The translations under genes were made by a program, and so were the position numbers. Under the pieces are notes generated by a model. It did no database searches. It was not told the origin of the DNA and saw only the letters and a program-made list of their open reading frames with translations. DNA of 25,315 nucleotides from a virus: positions 1 through 25,315 of the IMG/VR virus record IMGVR_UViG_3300042398_000264; one strand, written 5' to 3'. Positions within the stretch are counted from its first letter, which is position 1, and each line of letters opens with the position of its first letter. Positions 1,055 through 12,129 of this stretch are shown here, one piece after another.

Positions 1055-2640
1055 ATTCGTTTCACCACCTTGTAGAATTTGCCATCACGCTTGTAAGAAA
1101 TTAACTTAGGTGGATCCGATTCATTCATCTGTGCAACTAAATATGTCAACGGCACTACCGCCTGATCAATACCAGACAGTACTGCCCCAGATTGACGTGC
1201 AATGTCATGCAACAATTGAATGGCTTTGTTACCCGCAAAGCCCTGATTAAGCACCGGTAGGTACTCTGTGATCGGTGGGTCAGTTAAGCCACCATAATAA
1301 GTCAACGCAATCATTTCGTTGCCACTAGCACGGCTGATGTGCTTGCGCCAATGCCAATCGGTCACAAGCATGTCCATGCCCTCCAGCCCCATGATGTCGT
1401 CCTGGCGTAGCACCAGTTTCTTTTCTGCCGTTGGCGGAAATTCATGGCCACAGTTCGGGCAAACCTTAGCAGAGATATGCACAATCTCATGGCATTCATC
1501 ACACACTTTTACCGGTGCCTCACCCTCGCCAGACCCACCCTTCTTGGGTGGTTGCACGTTGGTGATTGGACCGTGCATCTCAACCACTCCCGCAAAGTCA
1601 AGCACTAAACAATGATCGGTGTGACTCTTGGGGCGCATCCCACGCCCTGCCATCTGCACATAGAGCGACGCACTCATGGTCGGTCGTAGCATGGCAATCA
1701 AGTCAATGTCTGGGTAATCAAAACCTGTAGTCAACACATTGGCATTGGTCAGCGCACGGATGCGTCCGGCCTTAAACTCGGTCAGCATCCGGTCACGCTC
1801 AGCCTTGGGGGTATCGCCTGTCACACAGGCGGCAGAAACGCCCTGGTCAATTAGCTCTTGGCAGACGTGCTGCGCGTGTTTGACACCAGCGCAAAAGAAT
1901 AGCCAAGCTTTGCGGTCAGCGGCAAGTTTGATGACTTCACGCACAACCGCAATATTCTTGTCTTGGTTATCTACCGCGGCTTGCAACTCAGCCTCGATAT
2001 ACTCGCCACCACGCTTGTGTACGGCACTTACGTCAAAGCGCTCGGACGTCACTTTACTGCGCAACGTCGCCAAATATTTTTTATAAACCAATTCCTCAAT
2101 GCTAATTGGTTCAATCAATGCATCAAACAATGCTGGCTTATCCGTGATTAAACCGTGCCCAAGGCGGTATGGCGTGGCAGTCAGCCCTACCACCCTAAGA
2201 CTGGGATTAATCGTTTGTAGGTCGTTTAAAAGGGTTCGATATCCGCCCTCGTCCTTGTGGCTCACTAGGTGACACTCGTCCACAATTACTAAGTCAACGT
2301 GGCCAAGTTGTTCTGCCTTAGTCCTAACCGATTGAATGCCGGCAAAGGTAATTGGCTCACCTAATTGACGCTTACCAATCCCTGCGCTATAAATGCCCAA
2401 AGGCGCTCCCTTCCAATGGAGTCTCATTTTCTCGGCATTCTGAACAATCAATTCCTTAACGTGCGTCAACATAAGAATTTTTGTTTTTGGCCAAGATTGC
2501 AGCGCGTCCTTACACAGCGCCGCAACAATGTGGCTCTTCCCCGACCCAGTTGGGAGGACCAGGCACGGGTTACCAGTTGGGGTCTTGTTAAACCAAGCGT
2601 ATAACTGGTCTATCGTGCGCTGTTGGTAGTCACGAAGCAT
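1048..2640 (-). CDS. superfamily 2 DNA/RNA helicase (DEAD/DEAH, Res-type)
   Basis: 530 residues. Motif I is LPTGSGKS (about 29-36), motif II is DECH (121-124), motif III is LTATPYR (about 153-159), and a C-terminal helicase domain holds QMAGRGMR (motif VI). A zinc ribbon follows (CDECHEIVHIS then CPNCGHEFP, two CxxC pairs), then an unassigned C-terminal region of about 130 residues. The family consists of ATP-driven translocases with UvsW/type III restriction-like cores, used by phages in replication fork remodelling or recombination. The start ATG overlaps the methyltransferase stop (TAATG), and the stop overlaps the nuclease start. Confidence 0.92.
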   Translation of the reverse strand: MLRDYQQRTIDQLYAWFNKTPTGNPCLVLPTGSGKSHIVAALCKDALQSWPKTKILMLTHVKELIVQNAEKMRLHWKGAPLGIYSAGIGKRQLGEPITFAGIQSVRTKAEQLGHVDLVIVDECHLVSHKDEGGYRTLLNDLQTINPSLRVVGLTATPYRLGHGLITDKPALFDALIEPISIEELVYKKYLATLRSKVTSERFDVSAVHKRGGEYIEAELQAAVDNQDKNIAVVREVIKLAADRKAWLFFCAGVKHAQHVCQELIDQGVSAACVTGDTPKAERDRMLTEFKAGRIRALTNANVLTTGFDYPDIDLIAMLRPTMSASLYVQMAGRGMRPKSHTDHCLVLDFAGVVEMHGPITNVQPPKKGGSGEGEAPVKVCDECHEIVHISAKVCPNCGHEFPPTAEKKLVLRQDDIMGLEGMDMLVTDWHWRKHISRASGNEMIALTYYGGLTDPPITEYLPVLNQGFAGNKAIQLLHDIARQSGAVLSGIDQAVVPLTYLVAQMNESDPPKLISYKRDGKFYKVVKRIW

Positions 2641-3366
2641 TATCTAAGCAGCTCCCATGCTGTTGCTGCCACTGATGGAACTTGTCCATTTCCAATGGCT
2701 TTAAGTCTGTCCACCCGAGCGGCCACATCATCAATATCTCTTGCGCTGCCAACGGCATTTTCATGTTGTATTTGCGGGCGTAATGATATTGAGGACGATT
2801 TTGATGTCCCGCTTCGTTTTTGTCCCCTTGCCTTTTTAATGTTTCTAATTTGCCCGTCGCTTTCCAATCCGTTGCCGTTGGTGTAGGCCAATATCCAAAT
2901 CCTTTTTCGATGGTGACAAGCCCCAATGTCATCTGCGCCCAACACTCCCCATTTTGCATCAAACCCCATTGAGGCCAAGTCTGCAAGGACAGTTCCAAGT
3001 CCTCGAATAGTGAGCATTGGACTGTTTTCCACAAAAACGTATCTAGGTCTAACCTCGCCAATAATCCGTGCCATTTCTCGCCACATACCTGAACGCTCTC
3101 CGGTAATTCCCGCCCCCCCCCCGCTGCGCTAATGTCTTGGCAGGGAAACCCGCCAGATACAACGTCAACAATTCCTCGCCACGGCTTTCCGTCAAAGGTT
3201 TGTACGTCATCCCAAATCGGGAAAGGCGGGAGAATTTTGTCATTTTGTCGGGCGCACAATACGCTTGCTGGGTATTGTTCCCACTCAACGGCGCAGACGG
3301 TTCTCCATCCGAGAAGGTGTCCCCCAAGTATTCCTCCACCAGCACCTGCGAAAAGAGCCAACTCAT
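2630..3366 (-). CDS. putative overlapping reading frame inside the methyltransferase gene
   Basis: A second frame, shifted relative to the methyltransferase, starts at an ATG at 3366 with GGAG 7 nt upstream. That Shine-Dalgarno lies within the first codons of the methyltransferase. It runs MSWLFSQVLVEEYLGDTF... to LYLAGFPAKTLAQ, is broken at the same G10 tract, and continues in the frame containing CGEKWHGLLARLDLDTFLWK, WPQWGLMQNGECW, YWPTPTATDWK and WPLGWTDLKPLEMDKF, to a stop at 2630. One added G rejoins it as an open frame of about 245 codons. I recall phage and metagenome proteins with these same motifs ('LFSQALVEEYS', 'LTESRGEELLT', 'GWTDLKPLE.DKF') as hypothetical or methylase-associated proteins. 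Function is unknown; it could be a conserved shadow rather than a translated gene. Confidence 0.45.
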
Positions 3367-3379
3367 TTAAGTTCTCCAT
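2640..3379 (-). CDS. cytosine-C5 DNA methyltransferase, interrupted by a frameshift at a G10 tract
   Basis: The gene starts at the ATG at 3379 (TAATG overlap with the nuclease gene) and should end with the TAA at 2640. The first part has motif I LFAGAGGGILGG and motif IV GGFPCQDIS with catalytic Cys80. Just after, at the G10 tract (3113-3122), the frame is lost. The rest continues in another frame: MWREMARIIGEVRPRYVF, VENSP (motif VI), HHRKRIWILAY (motif VIII) and LKAIGNGQVPSVAATAW (motif X). Eleven G (or eight) would join the parts as ISAAGGGAGITGERSG, which is the family consensus around this point. As read the enzyme is not made intact unless slippage occurs. The region between motifs VIII and X is short for a target-recognition domain. 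Probable role: self-methylation against host restriction. Confidence 0.85.
3113..3122. repeat. C10/G10 homopolymer tract at the methyltransferase frameshift
   Basis: Ten C on the + strand (G10 in the coding strand), immediately followed by C and GGG in the coding direction. It sits between motif IV and motif VI of the methyltransferase. A tract of 11 or 8 G restores both overlapping reading frames. Such tracts are classic slipped-strand mispairing sites and also classic assembly or sequencing errors; the sequence alone cannot separate these. Confidence 0.85.
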
Positions 3380-7050: not shown

Positions 7051-7224
7051 ATGAAAACACAGGAAGCAATTGACCATTGGGGCGGTGTCAAGCGACTCGC
7101 AGACGACCTAAAGACATGGCCACAAACCATCTACCAATGGGGCGAGTACCCGCCAATTGGCAGGCAGTACGAGATTGAAGTAAAAAGTGATGGTTGCTTG
7201 AGAGCAGAAGAGGAAAAGGTATGA
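7051..7224 (+). CDS. Cro-like helix-turn-helix regulator
   Basis: 57 residues. The layout AIDHWGGVKRLADDLKTWPQ then TIYQWGEYPPIGRQYEIEV follows P22/lambda-type Cro proteins (helix 1, helix-turn-helix with 'A..L......I..W', then 'IP...AY.IE'). GGATAAG precedes the ATG and the stop overlaps the primase start (ATGA). It faces the leftward promoter, which it probably represses early in infection. No CI-type partner gene is present in the window. Confidence 0.82.
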   Translation: MKTQEAIDHWGGVKRLADDLKTWPQTIYQWGEYPPIGRQYEIEVKSDGCLRAEEEKV

Positions 7225-9218
7225 CCAATTTATCTGCAATACTAGGTGACAATTGGTCGCCCCCAGCAGACAAGACACTTGCATCACCCGAAGTTCAGTT
7301 CATTGACGCCATTGTTCACGCAGGGCTAAACGCCCCCAGAGATTTGGTGTTGGATGGCAAAATACACCGCTTTGCGAGCGATGAAGACAAGCGCAAGAAG
7401 CCTGGTTGGTACGTTGGTTTTGAGGAACCCATCCCTGTGTTGGTGTTTGGGTGTTGGAAGGCGGGATTCACTAGCCAAAAACGCGCTGAAACAGGCGTCA
7501 AGTACACGCCCGCCGATGAGATGAAGTTGCTATCTCATATCGCAATGGCAAAAAAGCTGCGCGACGCGGAGCTTGAGCGCAAGCATGAGTTGGCCGTTGA
7601 AACGGTTGAGTTAATCTGGCCAAACTGTACCCCAGCCTCCCCCGACCACCCGTACTTGAAGCGCAAGGGCATATCCACCCATGGTGCCAGAGTGACCGGC
7701 GATGGTCGCTTAGTTGTGCCACTTTTTTCTGAAGAGGGTGAGTTGTCGAGCCTTCAATACATTGATGGTGATGGCAATAAGCTGTATCACACAGGCGGGG
7801 TGACAGGCTCACGCTTTTGGTTGATTGGTGAGCTTAAGCAAACCCTGTACATAGCAGAGGGGTTTGCCACCGCTGCCACCATCCACGAAGTGACCAATGA
7901 TGCGGTTTGCGTGGCGTACAGTGCCAATAACCTGTCGAACGTGACCGGCATCATGCGCACCAAGTACGGTGCCACCCAGAACATTGTGATTGTGGCGGAC
8001 AATGATATGTCAGGCGTTGGGTTAAATGAGGCCACCAAGGCGAGTGCCAAGCATGGTGCCAGAGTCGTCATGCCACCCATCATAGGCGATGCAAACGATT
8101 ATGCTCAGGCCGGCAATGATTTGTTGATGTTGCTCAATCCACCCAATGACGATTGGCTCATCTCAGCCGATGATTTCAGTGCCAAACCAGAACCCGTCAC
8201 TTGGTTAATTAAGCGTTGGGTTCAAGCAATGGCCCTGATTATGGTGCATGGCCCGAGCGGTGGTGGCAAGACCTTCGTGGTGTTAGATTGGGTGTTGCAC
8301 ATGGCAGCCGGTTTGCCCATTTGGGCAGAAAACAAGGTCAAACCCAGCGCAGTCGTATATCTGGCAGGCGAAGGGCACCAGGGCTTGCGCGGTCGGGTTG
8401 CAGCTTGGAAGCACAAACACCAAGCTTCTAAGCTCAATATGTGGCTCTCAAAGTCCGGTTGTGACTTAAACACCCCAGAGGGGTATCAGAAGGTCTCTGA
8501 CCAGATCCGCGCCTTACCCGTCACGCCGACCATGATCGTGGTCGATACCCTGCACCGTTTCTTACTTGGCGACGAAAACAGTGCCCAAGACGCCAAAGGG
8601 ATGTTAGACGCCTGTGCAGCCCTCATGCGTGAGTTTAATTGCTCAGTGCTACTGGTACACCACACCGGAGTCAGCGAAGAGGCACAGCATCGCGCAAGGG
8701 GGTCAAGCGCTTGGCGCGGTGCCTTGGATATTGAAATCAGCATTATCCCGTCCAAAGACGGTCAACCCCTTGAAATCGTCCAACGCAAGCAAAAAGACGG
8801 CGAATTGTCCGAACCCTTGTATGCCCGCATCGCACCTATCGTGATACCAGGTTGGTTTGATGAGGACGGCGAACCCGTAAAAAGTGCCACTTTGGAGTTG
8901 GTCGATGCCCCAGTGCGGGTTACCGCGTCCGACAATAAAGTGCAAGAACATCGCAAAATGTTCGAGAACGCATGGTTCGATTCTGGCGCCGAAGACCTAA
9001 AAGGCGAGCCCTATATATCCCGATCTGCCATGAAGGAATATTTAGATAAACAGGAAATTGCAAAGGCAACGGTCCAGAAAATGCTTAACCCGAGCGAGTC
9101 GTCAAGGTTTATGGGCAAGTTAATTAACTCAAATATACTTAGAACAGAGGGTCATGGGTGGGTGGTAAGCGATAAATTAATGGCTCAAAGCATGATGATT
9201 ATGAGGGGTGCTGAATGA
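7221..9218 (+). CDS. primase-helicase (Toprim plus RepA-like ATPase)
   Basis: 665 residues from the ATG at 7221, which overlaps the cro-like stop and has AGAGGAAAAGG upstream; the longer start at 7194 is rejected. The N-terminal 200 residues resemble a phage primase accessory region. A Toprim domain follows with YIAEGFATAAT (Glu213) and IVIVADNDMSG (Asp260, Asp262), then a RecA-like helicase domain with GPSGGGKT (344-351), MIVVDTLHRF (Asp442), LLVHHTG and RARGSSAWRGALD. The C terminus is less conserved. It synthesises RNA primers and unwinds DNA at the fork. The repeats just downstream are a candidate origin. Confidence 0.9.
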   Translation: MTNLSAILGDNWSPPADKTLASPEVQFIDAIVHAGLNAPRDLVLDGKIHRFASDEDKRKKPGWYVGFEEPIPVLVFGCWKAGFTSQKRAETGVKYTPADEMKLLSHIAMAKKLRDAELERKHELAVETVELIWPNCTPASPDHPYLKRKGISTHGARVTGDGRLVVPLFSEEGELSSLQYIDGDGNKLYHTGGVTGSRFWLIGELKQTLYIAEGFATAATIHEVTNDAVCVAYSANNLSNVTGIMRTKYGATQNIVIVADNDMSGVGLNEATKASAKHGARVVMPPIIGDANDYAQAGNDLLMLLNPPNDDWLISADDFSAKPEPVTWLIKRWVQAMALIMVHGPSGGGKTFVVLDWVLHMAAGLPIWAENKVKPSAVVYLAGEGHQGLRGRVAAWKHKHQASKLNMWLSKSGCDLNTPEGYQKVSDQIRALPVTPTMIVVDTLHRFLLGDENSAQDAKGMLDACAALMREFNCSVLLVHHTGVSEEAQHRARGSSAWRGALDIEISIIPSKDGQPLEIVQRKQKDGELSEPLYARIAPIVIPGWFDEDGEPVKSATLELVDAPVRVTASDNKVQEHRKMFENAWFDSGAEDLKGEPYISRSAMKEYLDKQEIAKATVQKMLNPSESSRFMGKLINSNILRTEGHGWVVSDKLMAQSMMIMRGAE

Positions 9219-9222
9219 GGCA

Positions 9223-9345
9223 AAACCGTACCAAAGCGTACCAATGGTACGGTTTGTCTTTTGGTACGGTTTGGGGGCAAAAAGCCATAAAAACCGTACC
9301 AAACCGTACCAGCTATCTATAAGATAGCTGGTATTGGTACGATTT
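9223..9345. repeat. array of direct and inverted GGTACGGTTT repeats with a central hairpin (origin-like)
   Basis: Exact copies of AAACCGTACC lie at 9223-9232, 9291-9300 and 9301-9310, and exact copies of the complement GGTACGGTTT at 9246-9255 and 9263-9272. One-mismatch copies lie at 9233-9242 (AAAGCGTACC) and 9336-9345 (GGTACGATTT). Next to the last pair ACCAGCTATCT (9308-9318) and AGATAGCTGGT (9322-9332) form a perfect 11-bp hairpin with a 3-nt loop. AAACCGTACCA (9223-9233) can also pair with TGGTACGGTTT (9245-9255). The array fills most of the 153-nt gap between two convergent genes. It has no T-tract, so a plain terminator is unlikely; an iteron-type origin or a terminase/regulator site fits better. 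Confidence 0.75.
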
Positions 9346-9371: not shown

Positions 9372-9911
9372 TTAAGTATTGTTTAAGGGTATAGTTTCGG
9401 GTTCATTGGGCTCGATATCGCTTACGTTATCGATTAAGCGAGCCTCAGCTTCTTTTAGTGCAGATACGATTGATATTTGAGTGTGGGTAACCGAGACGTC
9501 GATTTTGTCACCCCATGCTTTAGGTCGAAGTTTGGCAGCGGTCCATTTCCGAGTATCAATTCGAATCTTCATTTGGTTTATCCAGGCGCTTAACTGGGGA
9601 CCGTCTAAACCTTCTGGCGGTTTTTCCTCAGATATGTCGATAAGGGATTCAGCGAGATAGTCGGCCCTTGCTTCAATCGCTTCATCGTATAGGCGCCTAA
9701 TCTCGGGATTAGCTCGCATGTATTTTTGTACGCTGTCATAGGTCGGATAGCCCTCTTTTTTAATGGCGGTAATTAGGCTAGAGCCATTACCTATGTCCCG
9801 GAGTATCTCGGGCCACAGTTTTGGCCAATCGTATAAGGTGACAAAGTACCCCCAATCGTCGCGGTCCCTGCTATCGGCTAATACTTGCATGGGTGTTTGA
9901 ACGTGTTCCAT
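9372..9911 (-). CDS. terS: terminase small subunit (Sf6-type)
   Basis: 179 residues. An N-terminal helix-turn-helix region (SSLITAIKKEGYPTYDSVQK, then YMRANPEIRRLYDEAIEARA) is followed by DYLAESLIDIS, MKIRIDTRKWTAAKLRPKAW and GDKIDVSV, the order found in Sf6/P22-like small terminases. They bind the packaging site and assemble into a ring that delivers DNA to TerL. It is encoded on the strand opposite to TerL and about 2.2 kb away, which is unusual. It converges on the primase gene across the 10-bp repeat array. The ribosome-binding site is weak (GGA 9 nt upstream); no in-frame start exists further upstream. Confidence 0.8.
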   Translation of the reverse strand: MEHVQTPMQVLADSRDRDDWGYFVTLYDWPKLWPEILRDIGNGSSLITAIKKEGYPTYDSVQKYMRANPEIRRLYDEAIEARADYLAESLIDISEEKPPEGLDGPQLSAWINQMKIRIDTRKWTAAKLRPKAWGDKIDVSVTHTQISIVSALKEAEARLIDNVSDIEPNEPETIPLNNT

Positions 9912-11785: not shown

Positions 11786-11838
11786 ATATATTTATTAATC
11801 AATTATTTAATATTGATAAGCAAAACCTATTGCACAAT

Positions 11839-11854
11839 TGTTCCACGTGAAACA
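11839..11854. promoter_or_regulatory. parS: parS-like ParB-binding site
   Basis: TGTTCCACGTGAAACA matches the bacterial chromosomal parS consensus TGTTNCACGTGAAACA at all fixed positions. The two half-sites form an inverted repeat with one mismatch. No ParA or ParB gene is present in the window, so if functional it would recruit host ParB. It lies at the left end of the 15-bp repeat array. Confidence 0.7.
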
Positions 11855-11865
11855 GTGTGTCGCCT

Positions 11866-12014
11866 TGTTGCGTTGCACCATGTTGCGTCGCACAACATAA
11901 ATATGTTGCATCGCACAATGTTGCATTGCATCATTGCATCGCTCGTTTTGTTGCGTCGCAATATTGTGCGTCGCACCATGCCATGCCGCATTGCAACATT
12001 GTTGCGTTGCGTCA
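11866..12014. repeat. array of about eight 15-bp units, consensus TGTTGCRTYGCACMA
   Basis: Units begin at 11866, 11881, 11904, 11919, 11934 (degenerate), 11949, 11964 and 12000, mostly exactly 15 bp apart; 11979-11999 is a decayed stretch. The core TTGCGTCGCAA is an odd-centred palindrome, so each unit can bind a dimer. Because 15 is a multiple of three, the array stays open as a reading frame on both strands. Candidates are a packaging site for TerS, an origin or centromere-like site, or a multi-operator for the divergent promoters. Confidence 0.8.
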
Positions 12015-12129
12015 AACGAAGGGGGGGGGTAGGTCCCTGCGCGGGGAGTGTGTGTGTGCGCAGTGCCCACTAAAACTTTTTATTTTTTTTATTATTGCTT
12101 CAACATCACTTTCATTTACAATCAGTTTT

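Follow-up and report, generated by a model that had tools for sequence, protein, structure and literature searches.

A repeat array between the primase-helicase and terminase genes

The window, that is, the whole 25,315-nucleotide stretch of IMG/VR virus record IMGVR_UViG_3300042398_000264 analysed here, contains a non-coding gap bounded by the stop codon of a primase-helicase gene (9218) and the end of a convergent ORF for a terminase small subunit (TerS)-like protein (9372). An array of short repeats begins four bases past this stop codon. The features of the locus are as follows:

7051 to 7224, plus strand: gene for a Cro-like regulator (PHROG 409), upstream of the primase-helicase gene; served as control
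7221 to 9218, plus strand: gene for the 665 amino acid primase-helicase (Toprim primase, RepA/T7 gp4-like RecA-fold helicase, C-terminal winged helix)
8925 to 9215, plus strand: predicted C-terminal winged-helix domain, residues ~569-665
9051 to 9110, plus strand: putative recognition helix and following loop, the only strong peak of word-protein covariation
9223 to 9345, no strand: repeat array in the non-coding gap, proposed origin
9223 to 9232, minus strand: exact GGTACGGTTT, containing word copy 1 (9227 to 9232, CGTACC on the plus strand)
9233 to 9242, minus strand: one-mismatch copy GGTACGCTTT, with word copy 2 (9237 to 9242, CGTACC on the plus strand)
9246 to 9255, plus strand: exact GGTACGGTTT, with word copy 3 (9246 to 9251, minus strand; GGTACG on the plus strand)
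9263 to 9272, plus strand: exact GGTACGGTTT, with word copy 4 (9263 to 9268, minus strand; GGTACG on the plus strand)
9273 to 9286, plus strand: core GGGGGCAAAAAGCC (GGGGC[AG] or GGGGGC in 48/70 arrays)
9291 to 9300, minus strand: exact GGTACGGTTT, with word copy 5 (9295 to 9300, CGTACC on the plus strand)
9301 to 9310, minus strand: exact GGTACGGTTT, with word copy 6 (9305 to 9310, CGTACC on the plus strand)
9307 to 9333, no strand: perfect 12-bp hairpin (stem 9307-9318/9322-9333, loop ATA)
9336 to 9345, plus strand: one-mismatch copy GGTACGATTT, with word copy 7 (9336 to 9341, minus strand; GGTACG on the plus strand)
9372 to 9911, minus strand: gene for an Sf6-type terminase small subunit (Pfam Sf6_terminase, 1e-23), convergent neighbour

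The primase-helicase is matched by the Pfam families AAA_25 (3e-37) and Toprim_3 (1e-10) and by a DNA primase/helicase PHROG, and consists of a Toprim primase fused to a RecA-fold helicase, as in T7 gp4. The AlphaFold2 (AF2) model of the protein (pLDDT 84.6) matches T7 gp4, Twinkle and the RepA protein of RSF1010, the latter also being its sole sequence match in the PDB (1g8y). The C-terminal winged helix is predicted both in the model of the whole protein and in that of the domain alone (pLDDT 82.5), and Foldseek matches to this domain, all weak (E 0.04 or worse), are mostly to winged-helix regulators. The Sf6-type TerS gene is not part of the repeat and primase-helicase system. Elsewhere in the window, a C5 cytosine methylase on the minus strand (2630-3379) is seemingly split over two frames (ORFs 2630-3379 and 2640-3086), as though a frameshift had occurred, and a repetitive low-complexity stretch is present at the start of the terL ORF (11800-12060), the true start of which is probably located further downstream.

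A recount bears out the five exact and two one-mismatch copies of the 10-bp motif GGTACGGTTT that the preliminary description had noted in both orientations between 9223 and 9345, as well as the non-coding nature of the gap. The perfect stem-loop reported there is likewise present, although its stem comprises 12 bp with a 3-nt loop rather than 11 bp. No further exact copy of GGTACGGTTT occurs in the 25,315-base record, while three one-mismatch copies are scattered over it, so that the motif is not distributed throughout the record; as the latter is a fragment of a phage genome, this absence elsewhere is valid for these 25 kb only. When up to two mismatches are allowed, the motif is matched 34 times where 19.1 matches are expected, a count reached in 0/100 shuffles. 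The six-base word CGTACC/GGTACG occurs seven times in the gap, as opposed to 0.36 times per kb elsewhere, where it is never found twice within 250 nt. The best 6-mer count in 250 nt is seven, against 2.6 in shuffles, and 0/702 background tiles, taken from outside the arrays of five phage records, exceed six copies.

Arrays and words among relatives

Relatives of the primase-helicase were collected from viral contigs, bacterial genome contigs and annotated phages, and the DNA past the stop codon was examined in each locus (L-numbers are the labels of these loci). A significant array (shuffle P of 0.03 or better, at least four copies) directly follows the primase-helicase gene in 73 of 94 non-redundant relatives. 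The remainder comprises eight loci with arrays visible by eye, namely L205, L252 and six with G-run words that failed the test as set or were filtered, one locus with a displaced array (L217) and twelve without. The window's own word is retained in relatives with at least 75% identity, while those at 50-62% identity have, at the same site, an array just as dense but built from another word. Lineage words include TGACCC, GGTAAC, GGGAAC, CGTAAC, CGCAAC, CGGACC, TGGACA, GGGACA, GGTACA and GGTTCA. These share a common frame, in which the second base of the layout-oriented words is G and the fourth mostly A; frame and orientation were set by a partly automatic rule, hand-corrected in two cases. Words of the GTAC type were ambiguous in orientation in the first alignment and were resolved by the layout rule, with the same conclusion both ways.

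The arrays contain a median of ten copies, the first of which starts at a median distance of 8 nt from the stop codon, and both orientations are represented in 70/70. A layout of inward-facing words, a GGGGGCAA core and a hairpin with a CCTTTAGG-type apex is kept across the relatives, the usual order being a left word group, a spacer, words, GGGGGCAA, words, and the hairpin with inverted words. The spacer is AT-rich in longer arrays (L110, L111 and L042) and short in the window. The stem sequence of the hairpin is variable, while its apex in relatives is usually CCTTTAGG, CCTATAGG or CCCTTAGGG; that of the window belongs to the family CCTTTAGG/CCTATAGG/TCTATAAGA. In the arrays the longest stem has a mean length of 8.6 bp, compared with 5.2 bp in shuffles.

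In L217 the full array, together with core, hairpin and three DnaA boxes, lies ~960 nt downstream (about 930-1200 nt past the stop codon), presumably displaced by an insertion. The twelve array-less loci (L054, L055, L058, L061-L063, L071, L072, L076, L080, L081 and L083) form one clade, to which the loss of the array maps on the tree and in which the recognition region is rebuilt and enlarged with extra residues; a scan of these whole loci for repeat-dense windows yielded no clear candidate for a displaced array. The enzyme can therefore work without an array directly after its gene. A lack of repeats in relatives, raised in the preliminary description as an argument against an origin, is not found generally and applies to this one clade, where the recognition region has also changed, and to the displaced case of L217.

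Arrays with words of their own also follow the genes of more distant homologues, namely those of roseophage CRP-406, a Manatee Spring phage and two Spirochaetales MAG loci, while none was found after the gene in L271, L274, L275, L280 and L281. The cultured roseophages CRP-821 and CRP-811 carry ten and eleven copies, respectively, at nearly identical positions, with the word changed from GTATAA to CTACAA. The publication describing the cultured roseophages mentions neither repeats nor an origin (PMC12629253), and the papers searched yielded precedents but no account of an origin in phages of this group. A Klebsiella plasmid of 17 kb with a capsid protein gene (L276, CP018459) has a gene for a RepA-like helicase followed by a GTGCGGCA array, and looks like a phage-plasmid that uses an origin of this kind. 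In CRP-406 (L273:3045-3371) and XX1924 (L270:24415-24543) the array is overlapped by CDSs annotated as hypothetical; these are probably not genes.

Covariation of the word with the C-terminal domain

Word distances between loci were compared with protein distances in 20-residue windows. A clear signal is confined to residues 601-640, where the best two windows have r values of 0.54 and 0.57, as opposed to 0.04-0.24 in the other windows up to residue 600. The numbering used here starts at base 7236, five residues being added for the protein from the ATG at 7221, such that residues 606-625 correspond to 611-630 of the 665 amino acid protein. For residues 606-625 and layout-oriented words, r is 0.571, and the partial r given residues 1-555 is 0.544. 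This r is reached in 0/2000 permutations (maximum 0.13) and in 0/1000 when words may change places solely among proteins of the same similarity cluster, these permutation tests being inflated by related sequences. The best 11 of 556 single columns are all located at 602-624, and among 28 disjoint close pairs, which lessen the effect of shared ancestry, columns 621 and 615 are the best of 660. In the AlphaFold2 model the covarying residues fall in a helix and loop of the C-terminal winged helix. Because the word changes in step with this C-terminal tip of the primase-helicase, the comparison suggests that the tip reads the repeats.

Both small and large word changes can be observed. The proteins of L209 (GGTAAC) and L204 (GGGAAC) are 94% identical over residues 1-555 and differ within 595-640 at three recognition-region residues only, Q615V, S621A and P622T. 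Base 3 of the word follows residue 615, with Q accompanied by T in 16/16 cases and V by G in 6/6, while K and N are not decisive. The proteins of L246 and L216, by comparison, share mostly 80-97% identity at residues 180 to 570, but only 33-43% past residue 600, where each is similar to the C-termini of other proteins with its own word, and by their sequences the two look like the products of a cassette exchange. At least 34 word changes are required on the tree of residues 1-555, against ~60 with shuffled labels. The word may change through point changes in the recognition helix, or through replacement of the gene's 3′ end and the array as one cassette.

A candidate replication origin

We consider it highly probable, from sequence comparison, that the gap represents a phage replication origin, with the word CGTACC bound by the C-terminal winged helix of the adjacent primase-helicase. 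As in iteron-type origins, compact non-coding short repeats lie next to an initiator gene. An origin had already been proposed in the preliminary description from the position after the primase-helicase gene, and the comparison lends it strong support, in that the array travels with this gene, its word covaries with the winged helix, and DnaA boxes are found in relatives. The gaps contain the perfect DnaA box TTATCCACA 41 times and the rest of the retrieved sequence 25 times, at densities of 1.36 and 0.033 per kb, respectively, an about 40-fold enrichment, while shuffled versions of the box average 0.24 occurrences (at most 3). These boxes flank the array in 18/94 loci belonging to several word classes, typically with two just past the stop codon and one near 200 nt; none is present in the window or its nearest relatives, which counts against the origin reading, as do the weak fold matches of the winged helix and the lack of an array after the gene in the clade of twelve and in some distant homologues. 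Loci L221 and L242 contain extra DnaA boxes and near-copies ~640-870 nt past the stop codon, downstream of the array. In five records the cumulative GC skew reaches its minimum about 1-2.5 kb away from the array, at the divergent promoter; this is suggestive only, as the skew is confounded by divergent transcription.

From these observations we infer that the gap is active as an origin, that the protein binds it directly, that helicase rings are loaded and that priming takes place at the hairpin. The primase-helicase would bind CGTACC (~7 copies here, the median in relatives being ten) via its C-terminal winged helix, one or more helicase rings would be loaded at the array, aided by host DnaA in some lineages, and the AT-richer spacer would be where the strands melt. 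The GGGGGCAA core and the conserved-apex hairpin may then act in single-stranded form as a primase start or loading site.

Alternatively, the primase-helicase may bind the array for another purpose, such as self-regulation, segregation, packaging or fork control. The covariation links protein and word and is silent on the function of this link. However, the DnaA boxes flanking the array in relatives, the helicase and primase activities of the binder itself and the precedent of origins in the same place (PMC6092414, PMC7581432) render such a role unlikely. Another reading is that the gap stops transcription from both sides, as a terminator or cruciform, in keeping with the convergent genes in the window, the strong fold of the gap (z -7.9) and one weak terminator-like site found by scanning, which involves a different 6-bp stem. 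However, in 1N2-2, PB15 and CGphi29 the gene downstream points the same way as the primase-helicase gene, and the conserved 12-bp hairpin lacks the T-tract of an intrinsic terminator. The earlier suggestion of cruciforms that stop converging transcription is therefore unsupported as a shared function. Termination also leaves unexplained why five to fourteen copies change their word along with one protein helix, and we regard it as very improbable. A structured RNA element was also considered and rejected, as there is no Rfam match in the window and folding leaves the protein covariation unexplained.

Phage pac sites are often located near terS, which is the next gene in the window, and the array could accordingly be a pac or cos site bound by TerS. 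In PB15 and XX1924, however, TerS is encoded at a distance of over 5 kb, with the array still beside the primase-helicase gene, and the word tracks the primase-helicase, making this reading highly implausible. An operator array for the Cro-like regulator encoded just upstream of the primase-helicase has next to no probability, given that word and Cro-like protein are correlated with a partial r of only 0.08, or 0.04 once the recognition helix is accounted for, and that L209 and L204 have unrelated Cro proteins with words one base apart.

The proposed origin has partial counterparts in several known systems. The alpha protein of satellite phage P4 (ori/crr) combines primase, helicase and origin binding in one protein, although its helicase is of a different superfamily. 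This multifunctionality is documented in part in PMC7145576. In PICI and SaPI islands, the origin lies immediately 3′ of the initiator helicase gene and consists of short iterons in two sets around an AT-rich region, with iteron sequences given island by island, and is recognized by the C-terminal domain of the helicase (PMC6092414, PMC7581432). Their Rep proteins are, however, SF3/D5-type or DUF927 helicases, only some of which have a primase fused to them, whereas the phage system has a Toprim primase with a T7 gp4/RepA-like RecA-fold helicase (AAA_25), a conserved-apex hairpin and the GGGGGCAA core. With a helicase of a different superfamily, it falls outside the PICI replicon family. The C-terminal domain of SCCmec Cch2 has been shown by a binding assay to bind direct repeats just downstream of its own gene (PMC7581432); unlike the phage system, Cch2 is a D5-family helicase with only three iterons and a separate primase-polymerase. 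The RSF1010 (IncQ) origin comprises iterons and the hairpin priming sites ssiA and ssiB, and is served by a helicase (PMC4234260), with iteron binding (RepC), helicase (RepA) and primase (RepB′) divided over three proteins, and by analogy the phage system is like a fused version of it. A pRN1-type plasmid has an essential stem-loop element downstream of its primase-helicase gene (PMC4234260), which differs in its ~100-nt stem-loop, archaeo-eukaryotic primase, SF3 helicase and lack of a word array.

It is about an even chance that a widespread T7 gp4/RepA-like helicase-primase class carries its own C-terminal origin-address domain, with word and domain forming a repeatedly replaced cassette, and that natural variation reveals a residue-to-base code, for example residue 615 setting base 3. 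Such replacement perhaps keeps co-infecting relatives or satellites from using the origin. If the origin reading is right, it would provide a simple rule for finding origins in hundreds of uncultured phages, extend self-origin recognition to gp4/RepA-type helicases, and supply a set of naturally occurring specificity changes, the smallest involving just a few residues, for testing recognition and origin exclusivity.
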